Source: Alienimonas californiensis
GTDB taxonomy: Bacteria > Planctomycetota > Planctomycetia > Planctomycetales > Planctomycetaceae
Assembly (NCBI RefSeq): GCF_007743815.1
Contig: NZ_CP036265.1
Location: 2,348,323 to 2,412,322 of the forward strand
Reading direction: 5' to 3'
Length of the DNA stretch: 64,000 nucleotides
The translations under genes and the position numbers were made by a program. The notes under the pieces were generated by a model. That model saw only the letters and a list, made by a program, of their open reading frames with translations. It ran no database searches and was not told where the DNA came from. How positions within the stretch are numbered: the stretch's first letter is position 1; every line of letters starts with the position of its first letter. Of this stretch, positions 1,142 to 53,675 are shown piece after piece.

Positions 1142-3043
1142 TCACTTCCGTGAGCCGCCCTTCGACGTCTCGACGCCGGCGTACTCCTTCATCCGGTCCA
1201 CATAGCCGCCGTGGCTGTAATCACAGGCCGCGATTGCCTCGGCGTAGGGCTCGAAGCCCTCGCCGATCCAGTCGATCACGTTCAGGATCTTCAGCGAGGC
1301 GTAGCTGTCGTCCCGCAGCAGACCGGTCCAGCAGGCCTGGGCCGCGTCCCGTTCGCCAGCCCGGAAGAGGATCCACGCGGCCATCGTCCGAACGTGGTGG
1401 GATTCGTCGTCCAGCAGCGCCCGCACGGCCTCCAGGTCGACGGCCCCCGCGTCCTGCTCCTGAACCCGGAAGCAGCCCACCGTCGCCCAATACCGCTGGC
1501 CCAGGTCGTCGGACGACAGCCGCTCCGTCAGCGCCGCCCGATCCGCCGGCGTGGCGGCGAGGGCGGACGCCGACGCGGCTTGCAGCGCCCGCACGTCGTA
1601 GCGTTGCGGGTCGCGGACGTAGTCGTAAATGGTGACGCCGGCCTCGTCGGCGAGGCGGACGACCTCACTCTCCGGCAACAGGCCGGAGTCGAAGATCTCC
1701 CGTTGCCACTCGTCGAGCGCGGCGCTCAGCCGCTCCACATCGGCGGCGTACTGCGGATCCTCGGCAAGGTTGCGCACGTTGTCCGGGTCGGCCTCCGTGT
1801 CGTACAGCTCGTGCCGGGGCTTCGTGCCGAAGAAGCGGCCGGTGATCTCGTTCGTTTTGCCTGCTCGGTGGTGCTCCTCCCAAGCCCGGGTGGCCTTCAT
1901 GGTCCACAGATAAGAAAGACGCTGGCCCCAGGGGGCGTAGGGCATGTAGTTGCGAATATAGAGGAACTTCCGGTCCCGGATCGCGCGGACGTTGTCGCAG
2001 CGTTCGTCCATCCGCGCCCGGAAGCTGACGTGATAGTCCCGCGGTTCCTTGTCCGGCCCGAGGAAGGTTTTGCCCTGCAGATAATCCGGCGTCTCCGCCC
2101 CGCAGAGGGACAGCCAGGTCTTGGGCATATCGACAAAGGAGACGATGTCGTTCACCGGCTGCCCCGGTTCGCCCGGCCGCAGGTGTTTGTATTTCTCCGG
2201 GATGCGGACGATCAGCGGGCAGTGCGTGCCGCTGTCGAACAGGAACCGCTTGCTGCGGGCGATCACGCCGCCGTGGTCGGAGTTATAAACGACGATCGTG
2301 TTCTCCGCCAAACCGCTCTGCTCCAGTTGCTTCAGCGCCGCCCCGATGTCGGCGTCCATCTTCTTAATCTGGTCGTGGTAGTGGGCGTAGTTCTGGCGGA
2401 TGACGGGGACGTCCGGGTGATATTCCGCCAGCCGCACGTTCTCGGGGCTGTGGGTCGTCTGGCTGATGTCCCCGAACGCCTTGGATTCGTGCGACTTCGT
2501 GGTATTCAGCACCATGAAGAACGGCTGCTGCCGTTTGAGCGTTTTCCAGTCCGCTTTATTCGTGTCCCACGCCTCGTCGTCCGGCCGTCCGCCGATGTTG
2601 TAGTCGGTCTTTTTGGCGTTGCCGACGTAGTACCCGGCCTTCTTTAAGAGGTCGGGATAATAGGAGATGCGGTCGTGGGGAATCGGGTAGCGGCTCCGCA
2701 TGTTGTGCGTGCCCATCGAGATCGCGTTCACCCCGGTGATCCAGGTGCTGCGGGCCGGGGCGCAGACCGGGGCGTTGGCGAAGCAGTAGGGGTAGCGATG
2801 CCCCTCCGCCGCCAGCGCGTCGATATGCGGGGTGTCCGCGTGCGGATTGCCGTAGCAGCCGATCCAGTCGACGCTGTTGTCCTCGCTGGTGAGCCAGAGA
2901 ATGTTCGGTCGCTCGGCCGCCGCGGTGCCGTTCGCGGCCTCGGCGGCGACGGCCGGGCCGCCCAGTCCGAAGACGAACAGGGCGACGAGGGAGCCGATGC
3001 GGAACCTCCGGGCGGCGGGCGGTAGTGCGGGGGCGGACGTCAT
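1142..3043 (-). CDS. Secreted sulfatase with C-terminal HEAT-like region
   Basis: This is a type I formylglycine sulfatase that removes sulfate esters or N-sulfate, probably from sulfated polysaccharide outside the cytoplasm. A signal peptide is visible (hydrophobic 17-34, ending AVAAEA). The N-terminal metal site is in NILWLTSEDN (about 47-56), and the formylglycine motif is C94-A-P-A-R98 followed by STWITG. Later motifs include YNSDHGG and a K-containing segment (SRKRFLFDSG-like). After the catalytic domain (to about 480) come short alpha-helical repeats of HEAT type (for example ALLDDESHHVRTMAAWILF), so the 633 residues exceed many sulfatases. The overall look is closest to heparan N-sulfatase-like enzymes, but substrate class is inference. 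No maturase lies next to it. It ends about 150 bases before the dehydrogenase start. Confidence 0.92.
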   Translation of the reverse strand: MTSAPALPPAARRFRIGSLVALFVFGLGGPAVAAEAANGTAAAERPNILWLTSEDNSVDWIGCYGNPHADTPHIDALAAEGHRYPYCFANAPVCAPARSTWITGVNAISMGTHNMRSRYPIPHDRISYYPDLLKKAGYYVGNAKKTDYNIGGRPDDEAWDTNKADWKTLKRQQPFFMVLNTTKSHESKAFGDISQTTHSPENVRLAEYHPDVPVIRQNYAHYHDQIKKMDADIGAALKQLEQSGLAENTIVVYNSDHGGVIARSKRFLFDSGTHCPLIVRIPEKYKHLRPGEPGQPVNDIVSFVDMPKTWLSLCGAETPDYLQGKTFLGPDKEPRDYHVSFRARMDERCDNVRAIRDRKFLYIRNYMPYAPWGQRLSYLWTMKATRAWEEHHRAGKTNEITGRFFGTKPRHELYDTEADPDNVRNLAEDPQYAADVERLSAALDEWQREIFDSGLLPESEVVRLADEAGVTIYDYVRDPQRYDVRALQAASASALAATPADRAALTERLSSDDLGQRYWATVGCFRVQEQDAGAVDLEAVRALLDDESHHVRTMAAWILFRAGERDAAQACWTGLLRDDSYASLKILNVIDWIGEGFEPYAEAIAACDYSHGGYVDRMKEYAGVETSKGGSRK

Positions 3044-3152
3044 GGCGGCGCTGCGGGCGAGGCGGAAGGCGTGGCGTTCGTGGATGCGAACTTTACTCGA
3101 TCCCCCCGCAGCGTTCCCCCGTCCCGGCTGCCGTGCCGCTCAGGGCGGCCGG

Positions 3153-4145
3153 CTAACCGCGGGGGTGGTGCTTGGCGTGGACGGCCTTCAGTCGGGTGTG
3201 CTCCACATGGGTGTAGACCTGCGTGGTGCGGATGCTGGCGTGACCGAGTAGTTCCTGAAGCGCCCGCAGGTCGGCCCCGCCGGCGAGCATGTGCGTGGCG
3301 AAGCTGTGCCGCAGCGTGTGCGGGCTCACCTTCGAACTGCACCCGGCGAGGGCGGCGTACTTCTTCACCAAGTCCCAGACGGTCGCCCGGGTCAGCGGCC
3401 GGCCGGTGCGGGAGAGCAGCAGCGGGGCGCCCTCGCCGCTGACGCTGGGCCGGTCGCGGGCCAGCAGGGGGCGGGCGTCGGCGAGGTACGCCTCCAGCGC
3501 CGCCCGGCACCGCGGGTTCAGGCCGACGACCCGTTCCTTGTTCCCCTTGCCGAGGCACCGGGCCCAGCCGCCGCCCAGCCGCACGTCGGAGACCTTTAGG
3601 CCGACCACCTCGCTGGCCCGGCAGCCCGTGGCGTACAGCAGGGCCAGCGTCGCCCGGTCGCGAAGAATCAGCGCCTCGGTGACCTCGCCGGCCCCGCGTT
3701 CGGCCTGCGGGGCGTCGAGGAACGCCTCCACCTTCTGCGGACTCAGCACCGCCGGCAGACGGTCCCACAGCTTGGGGGAGTCCAGCAGTTCCGCGGGGTT
3801 CTCCGTCGCCGCCTCTTCCAGCACGAGGTAGCGGAAGAACTGCTTGAGCGAGACGAGGTGCCGCCCCACCGACGAGGGGGCGAGGCCGGCGTCCGACAGG
3901 TCGGCCTGATATTCGAGCAGGAACTCCAGGGTCACCGCGTTCGGCCCGACGTTTCGCGACGGTTGCCGGGCGACCCAGTCGAGAAACCGCCGCAGATCGC
4001 GGCTGTAGGCGGCGACGCTGTTCGCCGCCATCCCGCACTCGGCCTTCAAATAGCTGTGAAAGCCCGCCGCGTGCGCCGCCAGCCCCGGCGCCGGCTGGGC
4101 CGCGGCGAACCGACTGTCGGCCTTCGGTTTAAAACGCGGCGGCAT
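3153..4145 (-). CDS. xerD: Site-specific tyrosine recombinase XerC/XerD
   Basis: This tyrosine recombinase most likely resolves chromosome dimers at dif. It has an N-terminal SAM-like core-binding domain (about 22-115) and a C-terminal catalytic domain. All six catalytic residues are present with XerD-like spacing: R176 (GCRASE), K200 (GKGNKER), H276 and R279 (HTLRHSFATH), H302 (GHASI) and Y311 (QVYTH). At 330 residues it is slightly longer than E. coli XerD (298) because of an N-terminal extension. Its closeness to the XerC/D type and its housekeeping neighbours argue against an integrase of a mobile element. XerC versus XerD cannot be decided from one gene. Confidence 0.92.
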   Translation of the reverse strand: MPPRFKPKADSRFAAAQPAPGLAAHAAGFHSYLKAECGMAANSVAAYSRDLRRFLDWVARQPSRNVGPNAVTLEFLLEYQADLSDAGLAPSSVGRHLVSLKQFFRYLVLEEAATENPAELLDSPKLWDRLPAVLSPQKVEAFLDAPQAERGAGEVTEALILRDRATLALLYATGCRASEVVGLKVSDVRLGGGWARCLGKGNKERVVGLNPRCRAALEAYLADARPLLARDRPSVSGEGAPLLLSRTGRPLTRATVWDLVKKYAALAGCSSKVSPHTLRHSFATHMLAGGADLRALQELLGHASIRTTQVYTHVEHTRLKAVHAKHHPRG

Positions 4146-22540: not shown

Positions 22541-22915
22541 ATGAGCGTCCCGCTGACCCGCCGCCAACTGGGCGAAACCGTCGCCGCGAGCGTCGTCGCC
22601 GCGGCCGCCGGCGACGCCGTCCAGGCCGAGCCGCCCCGCCCCCCGCTGACGGCGCCCAAACCTCCCGTGCCGCGGGGGATCGGCGTGCAGGCGGCATTGC
22701 TGTACGAGGTGCTGCTCAGTCAGTTCCCCGAAAGCCGCGTCGAGGCGAAGCGGCCGGAGATCGCCCGGCAGATCGCCACGAACCTGTACTACGGCCAAAT
22801 CCTGGCCGAGACGAACCTCACCAACGCCGACGGCCCGGGGCCGCTGTGGGCGGCGTATCGGGCGGGCGACCTGATCGGCCGCGACCGCAACGCCGTTGAA
22901 GGAGAGGGCGGATGA
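22541..22915 (+). CDS. Exported protein with Tat-like signal
   Basis: A 124-residue protein. The N-terminus TRRQLGETVAASVVAAAAG has a twin-arginine and an alanine-rich hydrophobic stretch ending near AVQA, then a proline-rich linker, then a helical region (about 48-110) with LLYEVLLSQFPESR and IATNLYYGQILAETNLTN. It is not a family I recognise. It overlaps the next gene by 4 bases (ATGA), so all three small genes here are coupled. Confidence 0.65.
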   Translation: MSVPLTRRQLGETVAASVVAAAAGDAVQAEPPRPPLTAPKPPVPRGIGVQAALLYEVLLSQFPESRVEAKRPEIARQIATNLYYGQILAETNLTNADGPGPLWAAYRAGDLIGRDRNAVEGEGG

Positions 22916-23286
22916 TCGATTTGGTCCATGGTCCAGCGGTCCAACTGCTGTTACACAACATCGCGCCGGCGTTTCTTTACGCCGCCATCTGGTCAATGTG
23001 CTGTGCGATGGCCGTGCGGAGGTGCGGAATCGGCACGCCCGGCGCCCGACCGCTTGCGGCGGGGACGGGCTTGTTGGCGGTCACGCACGTGCTCCGCACC
23101 GTCTGGCCGTGGATCGTCATCCTGTGTCAGCCGGATGAACGGGCCGAAGTCTTCCAGCAGCCCTGGTACCATCTCGTCCAACTCGCCTCCTATCTCACAG
23201 CGTTCCTCGCCCCTCCGTTGATCGCGTGGGGCCTTTGGCTGACGTGGCGGGGCTACGATCGAGCCGGCGCGGAGGCGACGCCGTGA
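22912..23286 (+). CDS. Three-TM membrane protein with GTPGAR loop, relative of the 46488-51018 array
   Basis: A 124-residue protein preceded by a good Shine-Dalgarno (AAGGAGA, 22899-22905). Hydrophobic segments at about 17-35, 48-71 and 88-112 flank a basic loop RRCGIGTPGARP and an exposed loop (QPDERAEVFQQP). The order, spacing and the P-G-A-R loop match the plan of the eleven proteins encoded at 46488-51018, although sequence identity is low. It overlaps both neighbours by 4 bases. Function unknown. Confidence 0.75.
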   Translation: MIDLVHGPAVQLLLHNIAPAFLYAAIWSMCCAMAVRRCGIGTPGARPLAAGTGLLAVTHVLRTVWPWIVILCQPDERAEVFQQPWYHLVQLASYLTAFLAPPLIAWGLWLTWRGYDRAGAEATP

Positions 23287-23576
23287 GCCGCCCCCGTCGC
23301 GGCGAATCGCCGGCGGAGTTCGCGGCCCGGGAGGTGCGGCGGACGCACCGGCCGTCGTGGACGCGGTGGCTCGCGTTCCTTGCTGTATTGGCGTGGGTGG
23401 GGGCGGTCTGGTTCGCCTGGAATTCGCCGGACCCGTGGCCGCGGGACGGGTTATTGCAGGGTTCGGCGGCCTGCGGGGGGCTGGGGTTGCTGCTCTGCCG
23501 CGGCGGGGACCGGTTGATCGCCGGGCTGGCCCTGCTGGGGGCCGTGCTGTTGTGGTTGAAGCTGAACGGGATGTGA
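23283..23576 (+). CDS. Small membrane protein, two TM segments
   Basis: The GTG at 23283 overlaps the previous stop (GTGA) and gives 97 residues. A basic, soluble N-terminus (SRPRRGESPAEFAAREVRR) leads to hydrophobic segments at about 29-47 and 57-95, the latter probably two passes. I do not recognise it. It is the third gene of the coupled trio; a palindrome follows 5 bases after its stop. Confidence 0.65.
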   Translation: MSRPRRGESPAEFAAREVRRTHRPSWTRWLAFLAVLAWVGAVWFAWNSPDPWPRDGLLQGSAACGGLGLLLCRGGDRLIAGLALLGAVLLWLKLNGM

Positions 23577-43968: not shown

Positions 43969-44648
43969 CCCGCCGGGAAGAGGTCGGAGAGCTTCAACTG
44001 AAGGCCCGGCAACACCGGCTCCCCGGGCAGGGCGTCGCCGTGGCGGAACGTCGCCGAATCGTCCGGTCCCCGCCAGACGGTCGCGGTGCGCGTTTCCGGG
44101 TCCACCTCCCACACCCGGACCACGCCGGCGGCGAAGTAGACCGCCCGCTTCCGCCGCATCTCCTGCGCCGTATTGCCCGGGGACAGCACCTCAACCACCA
44201 ACGCCGGCGGCACGTCGCTGAAGCCCCGCGCCTGCAATCCGTCCGGCCGGTCCGCCGCGGGGGTGAAAGAGACGTCCGGCGCCCGCAGGCCGTCCGGCAG
44301 ATTGAAGAAGCCGTCGGCCCCGTGCAGGTGACCCAGGCGTCGCGGGGTCACGAAGTTCCACAGCAACGCCCCGATCGTGAGGCCGATGGAGGAGGACAGG
44401 TCGCTCACGGCCTTCTCGATTAAGGTGCCGTCAATCAGCTCGTACAGGCCTCGGCCGCGCCGGTTCGCCGCTTCCCAGTCCGCCACGGTCGCTTCGCCCG
44501 GGGGAGGGTCTCCCAGGATGCGCGACGCCGGGATCGGGCCGAACCGTTCGCTCAGGTCCGCGACGGTGAGCCCCGGCCGGTAGGGGCGGCGACGCGCGGG
44601 GGCGTCCCTCTCGGGCGGCGGGACGACGGGAACGGCGGGAGCGGACAT
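43965..44648 (-). CDS. Uma2 family endonuclease (PD-(D/E)xK)
   Basis: 227 residues. Uma2 proteins (DUF820) carry a restriction-endonuclease-like fold. The site residues are E78 (GTLIEKA), D125 (RAPDVSF), E153 (LVVEVLSPGN) and K167 (MRRKRAVYFAAGVVRVWEVD). An extra N-terminal 70 residues contain a Pro/Arg-rich leader. Uma2 genes are abundant in planctomycetes and cyanobacteria and their role is not settled. Translationally coupled to the following membrane protein. Confidence 0.9.
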   Translation of the reverse strand: MSAPAVPVVPPPERDAPARRRPYRPGLTVADLSERFGPIPASRILGDPPPGEATVADWEAANRRGRGLYELIDGTLIEKAVSDLSSSIGLTIGALLWNFVTPRRLGHLHGADGFFNLPDGLRAPDVSFTPAADRPDGLQARGFSDVPPALVVEVLSPGNTAQEMRRKRAVYFAAGVVRVWEVDPETRTATVWRGPDDSATFRHGDALPGEPVLPGLQLKLSDLFPAG

Positions 44649-44975
44649 CCCGCCAGTCTACCGCGGCGAGGGGGGCCGGAGGGAACGGAAGAGAACGGGG
44701 CGTCAGGTGGATGGCGGAACCCGGACCAACCCGTCCGCGTTCCACGTCTAACCGCGGCGCGCGCAGCACCCAGAGCCCGCGCCTTCCCCAGAGTGCCGCG
44801 TCGGCCCGTCCCCCGCGGGTCGCCGGCGTTTCCCGTGTTCCCCCCGCGCGCCGGGGGGCGTCGGGGCGGATTGCCGGTCGTGCGGATCGTGCGGCGCGTT
44901 GAGAACCCGGCGCCGCGGTCCTACAGTTCCCGCCCGACCGTCCGCCGCGGCGCCCCTCACAGAACGACACAGTCC
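44649..44975. other. Divergent intergenic region, no gene seen
   Basis: Lies between the Uma2 gene and the first clpP gene and should hold both promoters. An in-frame upstream extension of clpP is open, but its translation is Pro/Arg-rich and unlike ClpP. No repeat or hairpin stands out. Confidence 0.6.
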
Positions 44976-45632
44976 ATGCGCGACCCCCTTTCGAACCTTT
45001 CCGGAAACGGGCTCGGCGGGTTCGACCCGGTCCGGAGCCCGCAGTTGAACCGCGGCGGGCCGGCCCAGCAGCGGCAGATGACCATCGGGGACCTGCTCCT
45101 CGAGAACCGGATCATCTTCCTCGCCGGCCCGATCATGGACGAGTCGGCGAACCTCGCCGTGATGAAGCTGCTGTATCTCCAGAGCGAGAACCGCAAGCAG
45201 GACATCCACCTGTACGTCAACAGCCCCGGCGGCAGCGTGACCGCCACGATGGCGATCTACGACACGATGCGGTTCGTCGACTGCGACGTGTGCACCTACT
45301 GCGTCGGCCTGGCGGCCAGCGGCGGGGCGATCGTGCTGGCCGGCGGCACCAAGGGCAAACGCTACGCCCTGCCGCACGCCAAGATGATGATCCACCAGCC
45401 GCACGGCGAAGTCGGCGGGCAGGTGAGCGACATCGAGATCCAGGCGGAGGACATCATCGCCACCCGCCACACGCTGAACCAGATCCTCGCCAACCACACC
45501 GGCCAGGACATCGAGACGATCGCCCGGGACACCGAACGCGACCGCTACCTCACCGCCAAGGCCGCCGTCGAATACGGCCTGATCGACGAGGTCCTGCAAA
45601 AGCAGCACGATGCCGAGACCAGCCCCGGCTGA
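44976..45632 (+). CDS. clpP1: ATP-dependent Clp protease proteolytic subunit, first copy
   Basis: 218 residues. The catalytic triad is S115 (GLAASGGA), H140 (MMIHQPHG) and D189 (DTERDR), with exactly the spacing of E. coli ClpP (25 and 49). The substitution of Gly for Met right after the nucleophile (AASGG instead of AASMG) and the longer N-terminus with an Asn/Gly-rich leader set it apart from the second copy. It probably forms mixed tetradecamers with ClpP2 and works with ClpX or ClpA, not encoded here. Confidence 0.94.
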
Positions 45633-45641
45633 CCCCCCGCC

Positions 45642-45739
45642 GTGAGCCCGAAGCGCAAGCGAGGGGTTCGACGTTCGCTGATGTTCCACGCCGCCATTCG
45701 TTCACACGCCGCCCGGCCTCGCTTGCGCTTCGGGCTCAC
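45642..45739. repeat. Perfect 23-base inverted repeat between the two clpP genes
   Basis: Arms 45642-45664 (GTGAGCCCGAAGCGCAAGCG then AGG) and 45717-45739 are exact complements with a 52-base loop. The right arm ends 15 bases before the ATG of clpP2, so the structure could modulate read-through or translation of clpP2. Confidence 0.92.
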
Positions 45740-45754
45740 TTCAGGAAGCCGACC

Positions 45755-46369
45755 ATGACCACCCTCGTTCCCTACGTCATCGACAAGCAGGGCCGCGACG
45801 AGCGGGCGATGGACATCTACTCCCGGCTGCTCCGGGACCGGATCGTCATCATGGGCACCCAGGTCAACGACCAGGTCGCCAACAGCCTCGTCGCCCAGTT
45901 CCTCTACCTGCAGTTTGAGGATCCGAAGGCGGACATCCACTTCTACATCAACTCGCCCGGCGGGTCGGTGACGGCGGGGATGGCCATCTACGACACGATG
46001 CAGTTCATCTCCTGCGACGTGGCGACCTACTGCCTCGGCCAAGCCGCCAGCATGGGCGCCCTGCTCCTCACCGCCGGCGCAGCGGGCAAACGGTTCGCCC
46101 TGCCGAACAGCCGGATCATGATCCACCAGCCGCTCGCCGGGTTCCAGGGGACGGCGACGGACCTGGACATCCACGCCAAGGAGGTCATCCGCACGAAGCG
46201 CCGGATGAACGAGATCCTCCAGAAGCACACCGGCCGCGATCTGGAAGAGCTGGAGCGGGACACCGACCGCGACAAGTTCCTCTCCGCCGCCGAAGCCGCG
46301 GAGTACGGGCTGATCGACAAGGTCGTGGAAGACCTCTCCGGCGCCGGCGTGGCCCCCACCGGCGACTGA
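45755..46369 (+). CDS. clpP2: ATP-dependent Clp protease proteolytic subunit, second copy
   Basis: 204 residues from the ATG at 45755, a canonical ClpP: S99 (GQAASMGA), H124 (IMIHQPLAG), D173 (DTDRDKF), same spacing as E. coli. It is closer to the standard ClpP than the first copy. Two clpP genes in tandem suggest a heteromeric core. A terminator-like hairpin follows at 46411. Confidence 0.95.
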
Positions 46370-46410
46370 CCGGCGACGCCTGACCGCGAGCCGGTCCCGC
46401 CGTTAGACTC

Positions 46411-46450
46411 ACGCGACCCGGGCGCCGCGGCGTCCGGGTCGCGTTCTGTT
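46411..46450 (+). terminator. Terminator-like hairpin after clpP2
   Basis: Arms ACGCGACCCGG (46411-46421) and CCGGGTCGCGT (46434-46444) pair perfectly and are followed by TCTGTTT. It would separate the clpP transcript from the membrane-protein array starting at 46488. Confidence 0.7.
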
Positions 46451-46487
46451 TGGACGCCGCCACGATCCCGCCGAGGCCGCCGCCCGC

Positions 46488-47042
46488 ATGAGCCTGCCGG
46501 AACCGCTCCCGCTGTGGCTTGCCGTTCCGGCCGCGGCGCTGGTCGTGGGCGCGGCGTGGTGGACCTTCGGCCGCCCGGGGGCGCCGCGGCGGCGGCCCTG
46601 GGTCGTGTGGGGCGCCGGCGGGGCGGCCTGCCTGCTCGTCCTGTGGACGCAGGGGTTTGGCTACCTGCTCGAACGGGACGAGCTGATCTGGTGGCCGGTG
46701 GTGGCGGTCGGCCTGGCGTACGGCTGGTCCGCCGCCCGGGGACGATGGCGGAAGAAAGAACTGCCGCCTGGCGCCCGCCGGCTGCTCGCCGCGGCGGCGG
46801 CGCTGCTGTTCTCCGCCCCGCTGTTCTCCGTCACCGCGGAGGTTCTGCGGACCCGCCGGGAAACCCGCTGGGCGGTTCAGCGGAACCTGACCGGAACGAT
46901 GGGCGAGGTCTGGGCGACTGTCATCGAGGACGTGCCCGGCCGGGTGGCGATCGGCGGCGTGTGCGCACTCGTGGCGCTCGCCGCCCTGCGGACCGCCCGC
47001 GGCCGCGAGGCGCCCGCCCCGGCGCCGGAGGGGGCGCCATGA
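46488..47042 (+). CDS. Array membrane protein 1 (longest member)
   Basis: 184 residues with about five hydrophobic segments (8-27, 37-55, 66-82, 98-118, 152-169). A loop RWRKKELPPGARRL before the fourth segment carries the P-P-G-A-R-R version of the array motif. The long exposed segment (about 119-150, RRETRWAVQRNL) is unique. Its stop overlaps the next start (ATGA). First gene after the clpP2 hairpin, so the promoter is probably between 46450 and 46488. Unknown function. Confidence 0.75.
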   Translation: MSLPEPLPLWLAVPAAALVVGAAWWTFGRPGAPRRRPWVVWGAGGAACLLVLWTQGFGYLLERDELIWWPVVAVGLAYGWSAARGRWRKKELPPGARRLLAAAAALLFSAPLFSVTAEVLRTRRETRWAVQRNLTGTMGEVWATVIEDVPGRVAIGGVCALVALAALRTARGREAPAPAPEGAP

Positions 47043-47413
47043 GGTCCGACCCCTTTCCCACGGAACTGCTGATCCAGTTCGCGTTCGTGAATCTCCCGGT
47101 CGCGGCGGGCCTGGCGGCGTTGCTGTGGGCCGCCCTGCGGTTGTGGGCGACGGACCGGCTCGCCGCGGCGTTGCTGGGCGTCGCGGCCGGTCTGGTAACG
47201 GTCGAGTCCTCCGCCGACTTCGTCCGTGAACTCCTCTTCTGGCAGGACCCTGACTGGAGGATTACGCACTGGTCCTTCCACCTGCGGCATGGCGACTGGG
47301 TCGCGCCGCCCCGGCTGCTGGCCCTCGCCGCGGCCTGCGGGCTGGCGGCGGTGTGGCGGTGCGGGCGGCCGGCGCCGGCTCATCCCCCGCTTCGCAGCGA
47401 GGACGGATCATGA
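47039..47413 (+). CDS. Array membrane protein 2
   Basis: 124 residues, ATG overlapping the previous stop by 4 bases. Hydrophobic segments at about 9-36, 40-56 and 91-106. The exposed loop is unusually long and aromatic (FWQDPDWRITHWSFHLRHGDW). The motif after TM1 is reduced (WATDRL). Overlaps the next gene by 4 bases. Confidence 0.72.
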   Translation: MRSDPFPTELLIQFAFVNLPVAAGLAALLWAALRLWATDRLAAALLGVAAGLVTVESSADFVRELLFWQDPDWRITHWSFHLRHGDWVAPPRLLALAAACGLAAVWRCGRPAPAHPPLRSEDGS

Positions 47414-47769
47414 GCGGCGACGTCCTCAACTGGCTTGGGGCGCTGCTCGGCCTGCCGCTGGCGGCGGTGGGCGTCGGCGGGCTCGTCCTCGCCTGGCGGA
47501 ATCGGCGCACCAAGCCGACAGCGGCCCGGATGTTCGCCCTCGGCGTCGTCCTGCTGCTGGGCAACGCCGGTGTGGAACTCGTCATCTACACGCTCTTCCC
47601 CCTGCACGAGTGGATTGATTCGGCGATCTTGGACGCGCAGGTCGCCTACCTGCTGGCCGGGGCGGCGCGACAGGCGTTCGTCGTGACCGCGGCGCTGCTG
47701 ATCACCGCCGCGGTGTTCGTCACCGAGGACCCGACCGAACGTCCCGAGCCCGGCGGGACGGTCGAATGA
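47410..47769 (+). CDS. Array membrane protein 3
   Basis: 119 residues. TM segments at about 6-29, 40-63 and 86-104, basic loop RNRRTKPTAARM, acidic C-terminal tail (TEDPTERPEPGG). ATGA overlaps at both ends. Unrecognised. Confidence 0.72.
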   Translation: MSGDVLNWLGALLGLPLAAVGVGGLVLAWRNRRTKPTAARMFALGVVLLLGNAGVELVIYTLFPLHEWIDSAILDAQVAYLLAGAARQAFVVTAALLITAAVFVTEDPTERPEPGGTVE

Positions 47770-48143
47770 GTCTTTGGGAGGGCGAACTGACAACAGTCGG
47801 CATCTGGACGTGGTGGTTCGTCATCACCACGGCGACGGTCGTGTTCGGCATCCGCGGGTGGCGGCGGGGGGCGCCCGGCGGCCGGTGGGCGCTGCTGGCC
47901 GGCGTGCTGGGGCTCGGCACGGGGCTGGCGCCGTGGGCGACCGGGCTGGCGTACTTTTTGGCAGGCCGGGGCGAGCCGGCGCTGAGTGAGGCGATGACCG
48001 CCGCCGCCTACTTCGCCTCGCCCGTCCTGTGGGCGGCGTCGCAGCTGTCGGTGATCGCGGCGGTCGCGACGATGTGGCGGATGCTGGACCGCGAGCGCCC
48101 GCCGAGAATTCCTGCCCAAGGGGGAACCGATGCAGCCGGCTGA
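47766..48143 (+). CDS. Array membrane protein 4
   Basis: 125 residues. TM segments at about 11-29, 40-66 and 79-104. The loop GWRRGAPGGRWALLAG is the clearest form of the array motif. Overlaps the next gene by 14 bases, the largest overlap in the array. Unrecognised. Confidence 0.75.
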   Translation: MSLWEGELTTVGIWTWWFVITTATVVFGIRGWRRGAPGGRWALLAGVLGLGTGLAPWATGLAYFLAGRGEPALSEAMTAAAYFASPVLWAASQLSVIAAVATMWRMLDRERPPRIPAQGGTDAAG

Positions 48144-48558
48144 CGCGGTCACGTTGCGGTTCGCCGTCGGCATTGGGCTGGCCGCGGTTTGGGTCACCCC
48201 GCTGGTCGCGGCGGCGCGCCGTCGCGGAGGCGCGTTGTTCCGCCCGCCGGGGTGGAGCACGCTGATCGCGGCGGGGGCGTGCGGTCTCGCCGCGGCGGCG
48301 CTGACGATCGGGGCCGCCTCCTTTTGGTCGCCGTGGGTCACTAATGGGTGGGGGCACGCCGCCCGCCAGCAGGACGCCGCGGAACGCGGGGCCGCCCTGC
48401 TCGCCGCCGCGGCTCAAGGGCTCTGCCTGCTGGCGCTCGTCTTCGCCTGGCGGGGGTGGGAATCGACCGGCCCGACCGGAGCTCCCGCGGCGTCGGCCAC
48501 GGACGACGAGCCGAACCCGCTGGACGCTCCTTTCCCTCCGAGGGAGACGCCCTCGTGA
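48130..48558 (+). CDS. Array membrane protein 5, with LDAPF tail
   Basis: 142 residues. TM segments at about 9-28, 44-66 and 87-107; loop ARRRGGALFRPPGW. The soluble tail ends NPLDAPFPPRETPS, and the LDAPF motif recurs in array protein 9. Stop overlaps the next start (GTGA). Confidence 0.75.
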   Translation: MQPADAVTLRFAVGIGLAAVWVTPLVAAARRRGGALFRPPGWSTLIAAGACGLAAAALTIGAASFWSPWVTNGWGHAARQQDAAERGAALLAAAAQGLCLLALVFAWRGWESTGPTGAPAASATDDEPNPLDAPFPPRETPS

Positions 48559-48926
48559 ACGAACGGGTCCTGGCCGCGGTGATCGGCGGGTGGTGTTTGC
48601 TGTGGCTCGCAGCCACGGCGGCCCCCGGCTTCGCCGGCTGGCATCGCCGGGACGCCGGTTTGCCGGGCGGAAAGCGGGCGATCGCGGCGGCCCTGTGCGG
48701 GTCTGCCCTGCCCGCGTTCCTCGCCGGGCTGTGCCTGGTGCGGGCCGTCTGGGCGGACGACGCCCCGATCTGGCTGCACCCGACCTTCGCCCTGCGATTC
48801 AAAGTGGCGTCGATCGCGTTGCCGGCGCTCTGGATCGTGTCGCTCGGATTGACGGTGTCCGCGGGGGCCGCGGCGACGGCCGCCGCCGCGCCCGAGCCCC
48901 CAGGTCGCGGGAAGGGGCCGGGGTGA
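48555..48926 (+). CDS. Array membrane protein 6
   Basis: 123 residues from a GTG overlapping the previous stop. TM segments at about 6-28, 41-66 and 82-105; loop HRRDAGLPGGKRAIA with the P-G-G-K form of the motif. Its stop shares one base with the next start (TGATG). Confidence 0.74.
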   Translation: MNERVLAAVIGGWCLLWLAATAAPGFAGWHRRDAGLPGGKRAIAAALCGSALPAFLAGLCLVRAVWADDAPIWLHPTFALRFKVASIALPALWIVSLGLTVSAGAAATAAAAPEPPGRGKGPG

Positions 48927-49300
48927 TGAGCGACCGCTGGCTCAGTCCGCTGTCGGTGTCGGCGGCGGTGGCACTGATGGGGATCTGGACGGCCGGACTG
49001 GTCGTCGCCTACCTACAGGGGGAACGGTCGGGGGAGCGTCCCCCCGGTACGCGGCGGCGGATCGTGGGGGGAGCGCTCGGCCTGTCCTTTGCCTCGCTGC
49101 CGCTCCTCGCCCCGTTCCTGCGGGACAGTGCGGCACTGGTGTTGGCGGGAACCGTCGTGGTCACGCACCAACTCGCCGCGGGGCTGACGTTTAGCGGCAC
49201 GCTGGCGGCGTGGCGGGCCGCGGAGCGACGGGAACCGCCGGCCGTGGCGCCGCCGGCCGTGGCGTCGGGTTTGGAGGACGGCGGGGGTGCCGCCCGCTAG
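48926..49300 (+). CDS. Array membrane protein 7
   Basis: 124 residues. TM segments at about 8-30, 46-65 and 69-95; loop GERSGERPPGTRRRIVGG with P-P-G-T-R. The tail is Ala/Pro-rich. An 89-base gap follows, the only real gap in the array, and it contains a short possible leader frame. Confidence 0.74.
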   Translation: MSDRWLSPLSVSAAVALMGIWTAGLVVAYLQGERSGERPPGTRRRIVGGALGLSFASLPLLAPFLRDSAALVLAGTVVVTHQLAAGLTFSGTLAAWRAAERREPPAVAPPAVASGLEDGGGAAR

Positions 49301-49339
49301 GCTCACGTCGTCCCGCCCCGCTCCTTCGTCGGCCGCCGC

Positions 49340-49393
49340 ATGAACGCCGCCGCCCCGCCGCCGGACGCCGCCGCTCAGAGGGCGGAGCGATGA
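49340..49393 (+). CDS. Possible 17-codon leader frame coupled to array protein 8
   Basis: A short frame (ATG at 49340, MNAAAPPPDAAAQRAER) whose TGA overlaps the ATG of the next gene in ATGATGG. It lies in the only gap of the array. It could couple translation across the gap or be chance; no homology can be judged at this size. Confidence 0.3.
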   Translation: MNAAAPPPDAAAQRAER

Positions 49394-49797
49394 TGGCCGG
49401 GGGATTGCTTTTCGTCGTGCTCGGCGGGATGTGGGTCCTGAACTGGCTCGCCGTGGTCCTGCTGACCGGGGCGCTGGGCCTGCGTCGCCGCCGCTGGGGC
49501 ACCCCGGGCGGCGGCTGGGCGCTGGCCTCCGCCGCGCTGCACGTGGTCGCGGCGGTGGGGATCGTCCTCTGGGCGCTCGCCGGCACGTTCCTCGGGGGCT
49601 CGCTGAGCGGGGGCGGCGTGATCCTCGTCACCGCCATCATCGTGACGCTGCTGGCGACCTGGGTCGCCGCCCACGTCATGCTGGTCCGGGCTCTTTGGCT
49701 GGCGTGGTCCGCTGTCGACCTCGCCGTGGCGAGCCGGGCCGCTCACCCCGCCGACGGGAACCCGGCCGAAGCGCCCGCAGTCGGGGCGGCGCCGTGA
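49390..49797 (+). CDS. Array membrane protein 8
   Basis: 135 residues, ATG at 49390 with a purine-rich GGCGGAG just upstream. TM segments at about 4-31, 41-68 and 75-110; loop LRRRRWGTPGGGWALAS, a clear motif form closely resembling RRCGIGTPGARPLAAG of the 22912 protein. Stop overlaps the next start (GTGA). Confidence 0.75.
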   Translation: MMAGGLLFVVLGGMWVLNWLAVVLLTGALGLRRRRWGTPGGGWALASAALHVVAAVGIVLWALAGTFLGGSLSGGGVILVTAIIVTLLATWVAAHVMLVRALWLAWSAVDLAVASRAAHPADGNPAEAPAVGAAP

Positions 49798-50291
49798 CTG
49801 AGGATTGGATCTTCCTGATGTATCTGGCGACTATTCTGGCGGGGGGCGCGATCGCGGGGCTGTGGACGTTCGCGTTCGTCCGGGCGGCGGCTCGGCGGAA
49901 CTTTGGCGACGGCGGTCCGGCCCGGGCGCTCCGCCCCGACGCGACGGCCGGCACGGGGCGGGTGATGCTCGGCGCCGCATTCGGCGCGGCGATGGGCGCC
50001 GTGACAGCGTGCGGCGGACTGTTGGGAATTGCCGCCGCGGCCGGCGGGCGGGTCGAACTGCCGGAGGCCTTCCTCCTGTTCCTGCTGGCGATCCCGGTGG
50101 GGATCGTGGTCTGCCCCGGACTGGCGCTGTGGGGGCTCGTCGCGGCGTGGCGGGTCGCGGAGCAGGACCCGGACGGTCACGGCCCTGACCCCGCGGTCGC
50201 CGCCCCGCCCCCGCCGGGGGGCGGCGACGGGCTCGATGCGCTGGACGCCCCGTTCGCTCCGCCGCCGACCGGTCGGGGGGGCGACGGGTGA
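49794..50291 (+). CDS. Array membrane protein 9, with LDAPF tail
   Basis: 165 residues from a GTG overlapping the previous stop. TM segments at about 5-29, 56-82 and 91-119. The loop is longer than in its neighbours (RRNFGDGGPARALRPDATAG). The Pro/Gly-rich tail contains ALDAPFAPPP, the motif shared with array protein 5. GTGA overlap with the next gene. Confidence 0.75.
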   Translation: MTEDWIFLMYLATILAGGAIAGLWTFAFVRAAARRNFGDGGPARALRPDATAGTGRVMLGAAFGAAMGAVTACGGLLGIAAAAGGRVELPEAFLLFLLAIPVGIVVCPGLALWGLVAAWRVAEQDPDGHGPDPAVAAPPPPGGGDGLDALDAPFAPPPTGRGGDG

Positions 50292-50686
50292 ACGATCTCC
50301 CGATCGTCGTTGGGGTGGCGCTGCTCGCGGTGGGGTTCGCCACGATCCCCGGCTGGCTGGCGGTCGTCGGCGCCGGGCTGTGGCGGCGGGGCACGGCGGG
50401 CGGGCGGCTGGCGGTCGCCGCCGCGGGGCTGCTGGCGCCGTTCTCGCTGTGCCTGCTCGGCGTGGCGACGGTCATCGCCTGGCAGGAGTTGTTCCTGAGG
50501 AGGCCTGCACCGAGGCCTACACCGGAGTGGCTCGAGGCGATTCAGGAAGCGGTCGACGCGGCGCTCCCGTACGCCATCGTCCTGTTCCCGGCGGGGCTGG
50601 CGCTGGTCGCCCTGGCGGCGCGGGCGGCGCTGGTCGCGGCCTCCCGGCGGCTCGTCGAACCGTCTGAGGGAGGGGCGGGAGAATGA
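50288..50686 (+). CDS. Array membrane protein 10
   Basis: 132 residues. TM segments at about 5-32, 40-68 and 92-117; loop LWRRGTAGGRLAVAAAG, nearly the same as in array protein 4; exposed loop FLRRPAPRPTPEWLEAIQ. ATGA overlap with the last gene. Confidence 0.75.
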   Translation: MNDLPIVVGVALLAVGFATIPGWLAVVGAGLWRRGTAGGRLAVAAAGLLAPFSLCLLGVATVIAWQELFLRRPAPRPTPEWLEAIQEAVDAALPYAIVLFPAGLALVALAARAALVAASRRLVEPSEGGAGE

Positions 50687-51018
50687 GCAACGACGCCGTG
50701 ATCGTTCTGATGGCCGTCGCCGTCGTGGGGCTGGGGATGGCGTGGACCCTGCTGCTGTGCGGCTGCGTCCGCCGGCGGGGCGAGCCGATCGACGGCCGCC
50801 GCTGGCTGACTGCGGCCGGGCTCTGCGGGGCGATCGGTCCGGCCTGCGGGGTGGCGCTGATGTTCCTCGCCGGCTCTTCCAACCACACCATGGAGCGGGT
50901 GGGACTCGAGCAGGCTCTGGTTCTGCTGTTGGCCGTCTCGCAGCTGTTCGCGCTGCTGTTCGCTCTCTGGGGGCTGCGGAGCGTCTGGCGTCAGACGGAA
51001 GGGTGGGGCGAACGCTAA
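50683..51018 (+). CDS. Array membrane protein 11
   Basis: 111 residues with a good GAGGGAGG Shine-Dalgarno upstream. TM segments at about 4-28, 41-63 and 76-101; loop CVRRRGEPIDGRRWLTAAG. Last of the array; the enolase-superfamily gene starts 37 bases later and could be on the same transcript. Confidence 0.74.
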   Translation: MSNDAVIVLMAVAVVGLGMAWTLLLCGCVRRRGEPIDGRRWLTAAGLCGAIGPACGVALMFLAGSSNHTMERVGLEQALVLLLAVSQLFALLFALWGLRSVWRQTEGWGER

Positions 51019-51055
51019 GCTGGTTCGCCCCTTCCGCTCACCCCGCCCGTCGTTC

Positions 51056-52261
51056 ATGTCGTCGCCCTTTCGTCTCACCCGCCGCACCGCCCTCGCCGCG
51101 GGGGCCGCGGGACTGGCCGCCGCGGCGTGGCCGGGGCGGGCGACGGCCCATCCCAATCACGGCGGGATCGTGCCGGACCTGCGGATGCGGTTCGCCGAGC
51201 CGATCGAACTGACGCGGTTCGACGTGGTCGCGCTCGACGGCACGCCGGCGGTCCGCGTGACGGACGCCGAGGGCGGCGTGGGCGTCGTGCCGGCGCACGA
51301 CAAGCTGGCGGACGTCCGCTCGCTGTTCGACCGGCTCGCGGCGCCGTACTTCGTCGGGACCGACGCCCGCGATCTGCCGGAGCGGATCGATCACGTCGAC
51401 GTCTCGGAGCGGCATTACAAATACGTCGGCATGCCCTTCTGGAACGCCGTCGCCCACTGCGAGTTGGCCGTCTGGGACCTGCTCGGCCGGCGGGCCGGGG
51501 TGCGGTGTACGGACCTGCTCGACCGGCGCCGGCGGCGTCGGCTGAACGTGTACATCTCCCGGTTCGACCGGGACACGACCCCGCAGCAGGCCGTCGAGCA
51601 GGCCTCCGCGGACCTCGCCGCAACCGGGGCGACGGCGGTCAAGCTGAAGGTCGGCGGCCGGATGCGCACCACGCCGGAGCAGAACGCCCGCGACGTGGCG
51701 ATGGTCGCCCTCGCCCGGCAGACCTGGGGGGACGACGTGGAAATCCTGCTCGACGCCAACGGCAGCTACACCGCCGACGAGGCGGTGCGCGCCGCGACGC
51801 GGTTCGCCGGGTACCGCGTCGGCTTCCTGGAGGAGCCCTGCGACTGGCGGGACGTGGAGGCGACCTTGCGCGTCCATGAGCAGCTCGAGGCCAAGGGGAT
51901 CAAACTGGACCTCGCCGGCGGGGAGCAGGATTCGATGATGACCCGCTGGCGGCAGTTCGCGGAGACGGAGCTGTTCCGGCCGATGCAGCCGGACCTGTAC
52001 TACGTCGGCGGGGCGATCCGGCTGCTGACCGTCGCCCGCATCGCCGACTCCGCCAAGCTGCCCCTCACCCCGCACGCCCCGCGGGCCGGCCTGGCGGCGT
52101 ACCCGGACACGATGGTGCGGGCCACGATCCCGAACCTCGGTCGGTATCAGGAATACGTCCGCAGCCCCGAGGTGACGGACGGCACCGTCCCCGTCCCCGA
52201 CGCCCCCGGCTGGGGCCTGCCTTGGGACGACGCCGCGGTGAAGGCGGCAGTTGCGGGCTGA
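51056..52261 (+). CDS. Tat-exported enolase-superfamily protein (mandelate racemase/dipeptide epimerase-like)
   Basis: 401 residues with a Tat signal (TRRTALAAGAAGLAAAAWPG). The barrel has the family acid-base and metal residues: K196-x-K198 (VKLKVGG), D233 (LLDANGS), E259/E260 (FLEEPCD), E290 (AGGEQD) and the C-terminal D313/H340 pair region (QPDLYY, PLTPHAPR). Such enzymes abstract an alpha proton from carboxylates. Most are cytoplasmic, so export is unusual; the substrate is unknown. Confidence 0.9.
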   Translation: MSSPFRLTRRTALAAGAAGLAAAAWPGRATAHPNHGGIVPDLRMRFAEPIELTRFDVVALDGTPAVRVTDAEGGVGVVPAHDKLADVRSLFDRLAAPYFVGTDARDLPERIDHVDVSERHYKYVGMPFWNAVAHCELAVWDLLGRRAGVRCTDLLDRRRRRRLNVYISRFDRDTTPQQAVEQASADLAATGATAVKLKVGGRMRTTPEQNARDVAMVALARQTWGDDVEILLDANGSYTADEAVRAATRFAGYRVGFLEEPCDWRDVEATLRVHEQLEAKGIKLDLAGGEQDSMMTRWRQFAETELFRPMQPDLYYVGGAIRLLTVARIADSAKLPLTPHAPRAGLAAYPDTMVRATIPNLGRYQEYVRSPEVTDGTVPVPDAPGWGLPWDDAAVKAAVAG

Positions 52262-52269
52262 AGTTCGTC

Positions 52270-52444
52270 CTCCCCTCTCCCCCCTTTGGGGGAGAGGGGC
52301 CGGGGGTGAGGGGGCGGTGACTCACGATCGCCCCTCAACCTCCGCCCGCTCTCCCGTCGTCGGGTTCGTCATCGCGGAGAGCGGAGACGATTTAACCGTG
52401 CGTCACCCTCACCCCCGGCCCCTCTCCCTCGAGGGAGAGGGGAG
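52270..52444. repeat. About 175-base composite inverted-repeat element, copy 2
   Basis: Same ends as the element at 32741 (GGGGGAGAGGGGCCGGGGG, GTGACTC on the left; GTGCGTCACCCTCACCCCC, CTCTCCCTCGAGGGAGAG on the right) and a related interior (GCGGAGAGCGG, AACCGTGCGTCACC). Again between two convergent genes. Confidence 0.88.
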
Positions 52445-52454
52445 ATACGGGGGC

Positions 52455-53066
52455 CTACTCGTCCGGCGTCCAGACGCGGAGGGTCGGGCCGTTCGCTTCC
52501 TCTTCCCGCACGGTGTGGCGGCCGTGGCGGTGTTCCTGCCAGAGGATGAAGGCCAGCAGACCGAGGGCCGCCGGCAGCGGCCAGACGTCGTAGAACCCCG
52601 CCGCCCCCTTGCCCCTGCCCTCCAGGGTCATGGTGAGATCGATGGCGCCGGCCCGCAGGGTCAGGGCGGCGGCGGCTGCGGCGCACAGGACCGCGAACGG
52701 TCGGGCGCTCCAGGCGGGGGCCGTGTACACGACCAACCCGCACGCCGCGATCCCGGGCCAGAGGCAGAGCGTGATCGCTCGGGGGATCTCCGCCGTGAGC
52801 AACTCCGCCGGCGGCAGGCCGGACCGGACGAGGTTCGCCATCCCGGCGACGCTCAGCCCGAAGGCGGTTCCGCCGGCGACCAGCGGCAACAGCGCCGCGG
52901 TGACCATCCACCAGCGCCAGCCGAGCCGGTCGAGCGTCCGCAGCGCCCACTGCGGGGGCGGTTCGCGATCGCCGTGCGGGCCGCCGTGCGGTCCGGGGCC
53001 CTGACGGTCCGGAGGCTCGGTCGGCGGGGCCGGCCCCGGGTCGGGAGCGCTCGGGAACGCCGGCAC
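52455..53066 (-). CDS. Membrane protein, about five TM segments
   Basis: 203 residues. A Pro/Gly-rich N-terminus (about 1-40) precedes hydrophobic segments near 52-75, 88-112, 116-140 and 158-176. The C-terminus is charged (HGRHTVREEEANG). Unrecognised. It follows the TPR gene by only 3 bases, so the two are one transcript. Confidence 0.7.
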   Translation of the reverse strand: MPAFPSAPDPGPAPPTEPPDRQGPGPHGGPHGDREPPPQWALRTLDRLGWRWWMVTAALLPLVAGGTAFGLSVAGMANLVRSGLPPAELLTAEIPRAITLCLWPGIAACGLVVYTAPAWSARPFAVLCAAAAAALTLRAGAIDLTMTLEGRGKGAAGFYDVWPLPAALGLLAFILWQEHRHGRHTVREEEANGPTLRVWTPDE

Positions 53067-53069
53067 GGC

Positions 53070-53399
53070 TCAGCCGCGCATCTGGATCATGCGGGCCTTC
53101 GCCATCGCGTCCTCGGCCTCCGGGATCAGCCCGCACCGCTGACAGATCACCGACAGGTGCGTGTAGCTGAAGGCGTCGTTCGGTTCGAGTTCCGGCACCT
53201 TCTTGGCGTGCTCCAGCGCTTCCTCCTTGCGGCCCAGCCGTTCGAGGTAGGTGGAGAGGGCGACGTGGGCGGCGACGTGCGTCGGGACCTGCTCGACCAA
53301 CCGTTCGAGCGTGCCGACGGCGCCCTCCAGATCGCCCGCGGCCTTCTGCTTGTTCGCCTCGCGGAGAAGCAGGTTCGGATTGGCGGCGGCGTCGGCCAT
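53070..53399 (-). CDS. Small TPR protein
   Basis: 109 residues from the ATG at 53399. Two to three TPR-like units: QKAAGDLEGAVGTLERLVEQ, HVALSTYLERLGRKEEALEHAKK, LEPNDAFSYTHLSVICQRCG. A longer frame running antisense through parB is rejected. It is divergent from parB and probably cytoplasmic; partner unknown. Confidence 0.85.
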   Translation of the reverse strand: MADAAANPNLLLREANKQKAAGDLEGAVGTLERLVEQVPTHVAAHVALSTYLERLGRKEEALEHAKKVPELEPNDAFSYTHLSVICQRCGLIPEAEDAMAKARMIQMRG

Positions 53400-53459
53400 C
53401 GGGCGCAAAGCGGGAGTCGGGGAAACGAAGAACGTTCGGCATCCTAGACCCCCGCCCAA

Positions 53460-53479
53460 GCCGGAGCCATGCCTCCGGC
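53460..53479. repeat. Variant of the GCCGG-ATG-CCGGC palindrome
   Basis: Arms GCCGGAG and CTCCGGC around CCATGC. It is a diverged member of the family at 23582, 37454 and 43051, here in a divergent promoter region. Confidence 0.6.
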
Positions 53480-53675
53480 CGGGGCGCCGGCGTTTCGCGC
53501 GAGACCCCCGCGCCCGAACGACCGGCCCCCGGGCTGAACCGGCGCGACCCCGGCGACCGATGCGACCCCTACGTCTTCGCATTCGCTCCGCCCCGGTCCG
53601 CCCGGCTCTCCGCCGGCCGATCGGGCGCACGGAACGACGCCTCTTCCACACGTCGCCTCCGGGATCTCTGCCGTT

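Follow-up and report, generated by a model that had tools for sequence, protein, structure and literature searches.

A gene array in Alienimonas californiensis appears to contain tandem copies of a two-gene cassette for small membrane proteins

Introduction

In the paired forms of the SMR and Fluc (CrcB) families, the products of two adjoining genes are small, homologous membrane proteins with a joint function. SMR proteins have four helices, the first of which carries a conserved acidic residue, and the partners of the paired form adopt opposite orientations. The genes yidH and yidG also adjoin; their products belong to DUF202, as do the membrane parts of VTC. Here, we describe a run of eleven small membrane-protein genes, named g1 to g11, in the marine planctomycete Alienimonas californiensis. 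The run occupies positions 46488-51018 of a 64,000-nucleotide stretch of contig NZ_CP036265.1 (positions 2348323-2412322), which is referred to as the window. We consider it somewhat better than an even bet (a probability of roughly 0.55) that g4-g11 represent four copies of a two-gene cassette, whose type I and type II products form heteromeric membrane units. The array is described in no title or opening of an abstract found for Alienimonas, for planctomycete small-membrane or tandem genes, or for DUF202, in a search that left most subscription papers outside its reach.

Results

Gene layout

The initial annotation described eleven plus-strand genes of 111-184 codons, with overlaps at nine of the ten junctions, and all eleven open reading frames were found as described. 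From g1 to g11, the junctions measure -4, -4, -4, -14, -4, -1, +89, -4, -4 and -4 bases; the 89-base gap at g7|g8 divides the run into seven plus four genes. The features are as follows.

46488..47042, plus strand: g1, 184 amino acids, membrane protein with probably five helices; opens the g1-g2 cassette
47039..47413, plus strand: g2, 124 amino acids, three helices, AAVWR closing helix 3; weakly type II-like
47410..47769, plus strand: g3, 119 amino acids, three helices; weakly type II-like
47766..48143, plus strand: g4, type I, putative cassette 1; three helices in an AlphaFold2 model
48130..48558, plus strand: g5, type II, putative cassette 1; LDAPF tail
48555..48926, plus strand: g6, type I, putative cassette 2; GTG start codon
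48926..49300, plus strand: g7, type II, putative cassette 2
49390..49797, plus strand: g8, type I, putative cassette 3
49794..50291, plus strand: g9, type II, putative cassette 3; GTG start codon, LDAPF tail
50288..50686, plus strand: g10, type I, putative cassette 4; GTG start codon
50683..51018, plus strand: g11, type II, putative cassette 4

These overlapping frames are genuine genes and not the open reading frame noise of a genome with 70% G+C, because their order recurs in Alienimonas chondri and because, across g3-g11, codon position 2 differs less between the two species (18-38%) than position 3 (37-54%).

Two alternating types of membrane protein

Judged by profile and tree comparisons, g4-g11 encode one family of three-helix membrane proteins with two subfamilies in strict alternation: type I (g4, g6, g8 and g10) and type II (g5, g7, g9 and g11). 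Type I proteins carry a basic RxxGxPGG loop past helix 1, in which the three glycines are invariant in all ten aligned rows and the arginine is present in at least 90%. The signature of type II is WRxx[ED] past helix 3, with tryptophan and arginine in ten of ten rows and glutamate in at least 90%. The loop sequences quoted in the initial annotation proved correct.

Because comparisons of single sequences are weak here, group was scored against group, and the scores were set against those of shuffles confined to the individual membrane segments and loops. Among all 35 ways of splitting the eight proteins four plus four, the alternating one ranks first, with 4.83 versus 2.03 for the runner-up. 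The set was extended by a lone cassette from elsewhere in the genome, s1-s2, to a total of 20 proteins (g4-g11, s1 and s2 of two species). In leave-one-out tests with hidden Markov models (HMMs), each of the 20 is scored better by the model of its own type than by the other, and in every case none of 300 segment-preserving shuffles reaches the own-type score. A maximum-likelihood tree of the same proteins separates types I and II at 94/95 support, and the split occurs in 91% of the bootstrap trees. When the two profiles are aligned with each other, hhalign gives a probability of 95.8 and a score of 53.9, compared with 16.9 +/- 3.8 for shuffled columns (0/100 as high), by which the two types are homologous; they would be ancient duplicates of each other. 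Since the types alternate strictly, the block appears to be built from a two-gene cassette repeated four times in tandem. Repeated duplication and divergence, as initially proposed for all eleven genes, is supported for g4-g11, with what appears to be a two-gene unit of copying that had been overlooked.

Further cassettes and the unit of duplication

Two lone cassettes lie elsewhere in the genome:

G000:C1:2515081-2515811: s1-s2, in I-II order with a 4-base ATGA overlap; also present in A. chondri
G000:C1:2033068-2033741: t1-t2, with a 4-base ATGA overlap; a pair found out of sample

The t1-t2 pair emerged from two separate profile searches that hit adjoining places, t1 with type I (E 3.2e-4) and t2 with type II (E 2.9e-6). 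None of 1000 shuffles reaches the own-type score of either protein, and 5/1000 are as high when t1 is scored as type II. At E<=1, t1-t2 was not found in A. chondri. Altogether, type I precedes type II with an overlap in all six cassettes of the A. californiensis genome. Divergent to s1-s2 lies a gene for a 1511-amino-acid secretin-domain protein (L006:5182-9714, minus strand; Pfam Secretin, E 1.3e-21).

The window also contains a type II-like gene that stands without a partner:

22912..23286, plus strand: u1, lone type II-like gene, 124 amino acids, three helices, a RRCGIGTPGARPLAAG loop and a TWRGYD end (E 2.6e-4)

No segment-shuffle out of 1000 reaches the type II score of u1, and a search of A. 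chondri for it gave nothing at E<=0.01. It is the middle member of a series of overlapping short genes at 22541-23576. The gene before it (22541-22915) encodes a protein that begins with a twin-arginine-like sequence, and the one after it is u2 (23283-23576, GTGA junction), followed by an amidase-like gene, with names assigned by reading; u2 encodes a small membrane protein unrelated to types I or II.

The first three genes of the run behave differently in these tests. With the g1 profile, 49/100 and 12/100 shuffles score as high in the two comparisons with types I and II. The A. californiensis g1 sequence by itself gives 2/300 against type I and 6/300 against type II, values that the three A. 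chondri copies do not reach. The g1 model is of low confidence (predicted local distance difference test, pLDDT, 53.7), and g1 probably encodes a different, five-helix protein. For g2, 1/100 shuffles are as high against the type II profile and 8/100 against type I; for g3, the values are 1/100 and 59/100. Single-sequence shuffle tests of g2 and g3 gave mixed results, and a relationship of both proteins to type II is weakly suggested. Profile-profile comparison, as proposed in the initial annotation, connects types I and II, leaves g1 unsupported and places g2 and g3 tentatively with type II; the claim that all eleven demonstrably form one family was abandoned, given the result for the g1 profile and the low confidence of the g1 model.

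The g1-g2 pair is present once in A. californiensis and in three consecutive copies in A. chondri:

L011:4039-4590, 3698-4039, 3123-3698, 2758-3123, 2207-2758, 1850-2200: the g1-g2 copies of A. chondri

This threefold pair is direct evidence that two-gene units get copied at this locus. Ahead of the array, A. chondri has two extra genes, x and y. The y product is II-like (0/300 shuffles), and x is at most weakly I-like, with 13/300, 35/400 and 1/100 shuffles as high in three tests; x-y is a possible further cassette.

These differences bear on the earlier proposal that the products form a single assembly of eleven different subunits in fixed stoichiometry. The overlaps throughout most of the run and the counterparts of all eleven genes in A. 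chondri would fit such a set, but it is weakened by the one g1-g2 pair here versus three in A. chondri, which moreover adds x and y, by the lone I-II cassettes elsewhere, by the 89-base gap at g7|g8, and by the unsupported relationship of g1. We regard it as unlikely. A hetero-oligomer in the form of I-II pairs is plausible.

Membrane topology and structure models

By Kyte-Doolittle analysis, the three-helix plan attributed to the products is found in nine of the eleven; g8 shows four windows, of which the last two are almost contiguous, and g1 shows five segments. In each of the ten three-helix products, those of types I and II included, net positive charge is highest in loop 1, in agreement with the positive-inside prediction of the initial annotation. 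Because of this charge, loop 1 is predicted to be cytoplasmic, and, given three helices, the C-terminus would therefore also lie inside (N-out, C-in). The basic end ascribed to helix 3 is not general, with 0-4 lysines or arginines in the following 15 residues.

The charge pattern also speaks to the idea that the cassettes encode a paired small transporter or channel, namely an SMR- or Fluc-like heterodimer from two adjoining genes. Two-gene cassettes of homologous small membrane proteins are what this would predict, but the charge of loop 1 predicts the same and not opposite orientations for both types, neither alignment contains an invariant charged residue within any helix, and no Pfam model scores above its cut-off in any of the eleven window proteins. 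We consider such a function improbable, and an opposite-topology pairing of types I and II is doubted, since the charge counts give the same orientation for both.

A confident structure model was obtained for g4 alone: AlphaFold2, run with 12 sequences, predicts three long helices (pLDDT 83.2, predicted template modelling score 0.61). A Foldseek search of this model against the Protein Data Bank gave nothing at E<=0.001, with E values of at least 0.87 among the matches listed. In a second look with VIA-align, VTC chains scored Z 8.4 and 8.1, the best one with a root-mean-square deviation of 4.3 over 96 residues and 8% identity, which may mean only a common arrangement, as helical bundles, according to the tool itself, often reach Z values of this size. 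Searching solved structures by sequence with a 20-row profile gave a best E of 0.04, to an unrelated protein.

Conservation within Alienimonas

The comparison genome within the genus is that of A. chondri LzC2. Here, g1-g7 keep their order on a contig that breaks off within g7, and a second contig has g8-g11 followed by an enolase-superfamily gene; we infer that the two contigs adjoin. By eye, contig C36 begins (L012:1-110) with a part of g7 in reverse orientation, which is also present at the end of contig C302 (L011:1-340), and this duplicated piece at the contig break looks like a fold-back or an assembly artefact.

In all nine pairs from g3 to g11, the proteins of the two species are 43-65% identical, compared with 94-95% for the ClpP-like proteins beside the run and 80% for the enolase-like one. 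The g3-g11 proteins thus evolve far faster than the products of neighbouring genes. For g1 and g2, differences are flat across codon positions 1, 2 and 3 (47/44/54 and 44/44/45, respectively), and orthologues are uncertain. Summed over 11 orthologous pairs (g3-g11, s1 and s2), loop 1 is the best conserved part, with 131/200 identical residues, followed by the three helices (108/209, 107/209 and 127/219), loop 2 (87/211) and the tails (60/170).

This pattern argues against the suggestion that the cassettes are lineage-specific orphan membrane genes, spread by duplication and with little or no selected function. In favour of that suggestion, g3-g11 are undetected outside the genus save for weak single hits, and they evolve far faster than their neighbours. 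Yet, at this level of divergence, g3-g11 have preserved their reading frames, gene order, types and signature residues, codon position 2 changes more slowly than position 3, and conservation in loop 1 exceeds that in the helices; overall, we find an absence of function unlikely.

The LDAPF tail noted earlier in g5 and g9 is real and recurs in both proteins of A. chondri; it was seen in no further protein among the open reading frames of at least 90 amino acids in the window and five other loci. In A. chondri g9 (L012:580-1128), LDAPF occurs twice in the tail, compared with once in A. californiensis, and may represent a multiplying short linear motif. Separately, g7 (49205-49226) and g9 (50142-50163) share 95% identity over 22 bases that encode the end of helix 3, which is unusual given the divergence of these genes. 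Gene conversion or a strong constraint on AAWRxAE are possible explanations.

Distribution and library searches

The search for g1 covered the two Alienimonas genomes. The g4 sequence alone has a match in 2/59 genomes of relatives and g3 in 2/101 genomes of the family, both of them Alienimonas in each case. With a combined profile, 7/397 genomes of the class pass E 0.001, including the two Alienimonas, and matches are strong in those two only; ten candidates were scored per genome, at which misses are possible. Searched by type, 4/101 family genomes pass E 0.01 with type I and 6/101 with type II, again with strong matches only in the two Alienimonas. By these searches, typed I-II pairs are found only in Alienimonas.

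A lone protein with three predicted membrane helices from one Planctomycetaceae genome (G363) and its relative from another (G247) resemble type II, with 0/1000 shuffles reaching their scores (E 0.0012 for G363). A third one (G152) is less clear as type II, with 24/1000 shuffles and, with an enlarged profile, 2/1000. No type I match was seen beside these three. Among the small multi-helix open reading frames of the weak-hit loci (L068, L079, L080, L081, L082, L115, L116, L118 and L119), a comparable plan was recognised by eye only in these G363, G247 and G152 proteins. Other candidates were set aside: one weak class hit (L041) is, by eye, the membrane part of a kinase-like protein, another (L038) has no small membrane protein, also by eye, and a hit weaker than u1 (L106/L004, within L007), which we take to resemble a TM2-type protein, is by reading not a relative.

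No NCBIfam model scores above cut-off in ten of the eleven window proteins (all except g8), and no viral contig with the g4 pair was found. These results touch on the possibility that the genes are immunity or self-protection cassettes, that is, arrayed small membrane proteins whose variable external loops each meet a different outside partner. The form of the array, the low conservation of loop 2 and the tails, and the copy number that differs between species would be in line with such a role. However, searches of PHROGs and PADLOC-DB gave no match at E<=0.1 for ten of the eleven proteins (all except g11), no toxin or secretion gene was recognised among the open reading frames listed for 44000-53500, and the paralogues are kept between both species instead of being turned over. 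We therefore hold a role of this kind to be quite unlikely.

Flanking features

Two minor features accompany the run:

46411..46444, plus strand: candidate terminator-like hairpin (15 pairs) that separates g1 from the clpP-like gene
49340..49393, plus strand: 17-codon open reading frame within the g7-g8 gap, in ATGA overlap with the g8 start; noted by eye, may be due to chance

The counterpart of the latter in A. chondri, also identified by eye, has 21 codons and lies at the same place (L012:141-206), with a TGATG junction. The region contains two terminator-like sites, compared with a mean of 2.2 in shuffles, so the hairpin is no more than a candidate. The run is bordered by clpP genes, named by reading of the open reading frames and not by a family search, and by an enolase-superfamily gene after g11. 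We doubt that the cluster extends the clpP-like operon, as the 15-pair hairpin intervenes, though the number of sites is not above chance. A sigma-70 promoter scan found none.

Discussion

Proposed assembly of type I-type II pairs

We propose that an ancestral two-gene cassette was duplicated in tandem and gave rise to g4-g11, while g1-g2 would be a second cassette of the same locus, amplified separately. The genes would be transcribed together, and the overlap of each type I gene with its type II partner may cause the two proteins to be made side by side and in matched amounts. Each pair would then form an inner-membrane heteromer in which both partners lie parallel (N-out, C-in). On the cytoplasmic side, the conserved basic loop with its glycines may serve as a shared surface for assembly or docking, and the divergent external loop and C-terminal tails might give each pair its own specificity.

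Several points weigh against this reading. The alternation, HMM and tree tests re-use the proteins in which the pattern was first noticed, and t1-t2, the only pair from outside that set, has a t1 that deviates from the PGG motif. The shuffles take account of the composition of each segment, not of convergent membrane patterns. Within each type, the forks of the tree are largely unresolved, and across five cassettes the similarities among type I proteins do not correlate with those among type II proteins (Mantel r 0.25, 38/120 permutations as high), so that joint duplication of each I-II pair lacks independent support. Three of the four between-cassette junctions overlap as well (g3|g4, g5|g6 and g9|g10, not g7|g8), and coupling is therefore not special to the putative I-II partners. 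Finally, lone type II-like proteins exist (u1 and those of G363 and G247), so that type II need not always have a type I partner, and type I may have arisen from type II. These lone genes and the lack of co-divergence between the types carry the most weight against the pairing.

A more far-reaching version of the pairing model would see the products as a genus-specific complex of interchangeable I-II heterodimers, with a common basic cytoplasmic face and up to six pairs mixed in one array, each with a different outer loop and cytoplasmic tail, and with a composition that is varied by duplicating the two-gene unit. This is speculative, and we give it little chance of being correct.

Taken together, at least five copying events of a two-gene unit that encodes homologous partners seem to have left four tandem and two lone cassettes on one chromosome, and a second kind of pair, g1-g2, occurs in triplicate in the sister species A. 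chondri. If the partners form heterodimers, the locus would offer a compact natural test of whether partner specificity is kept or lost when whole pairs are copied. The proteins also represent a fast-evolving membrane protein family without a counterpart in the libraries searched.

Comparison with known systems

DUF202 (YidH/YidG and the transmembrane part of VTC) may share its three-helix bundle with the proteins described here, and a VTC chain is the best VIA-align match of the g4 model; a DUF202-like fold of g4 would be compatible with that list. In contrast, none of the eleven window proteins has a Pfam DUF202 match at E<=5. The lone Planctomycetaceae proteins (G363, G247 and, weakly, G152) resemble the cassettes in scoring as type II, but differ in that no adjoining type I was seen and that the sequence relation is weak. 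Fluc/CrcB differs by the lack of any Pfam CrcB match at E<=5 in all eleven proteins. Compared with SMR, the cassette products have three helices and no invariant acidic residue in helix 1. Unlike SMR and Fluc, the two types lack a conserved charged helix residue and are both predicted, from their charge counts, to lie in the same orientation in the membrane.

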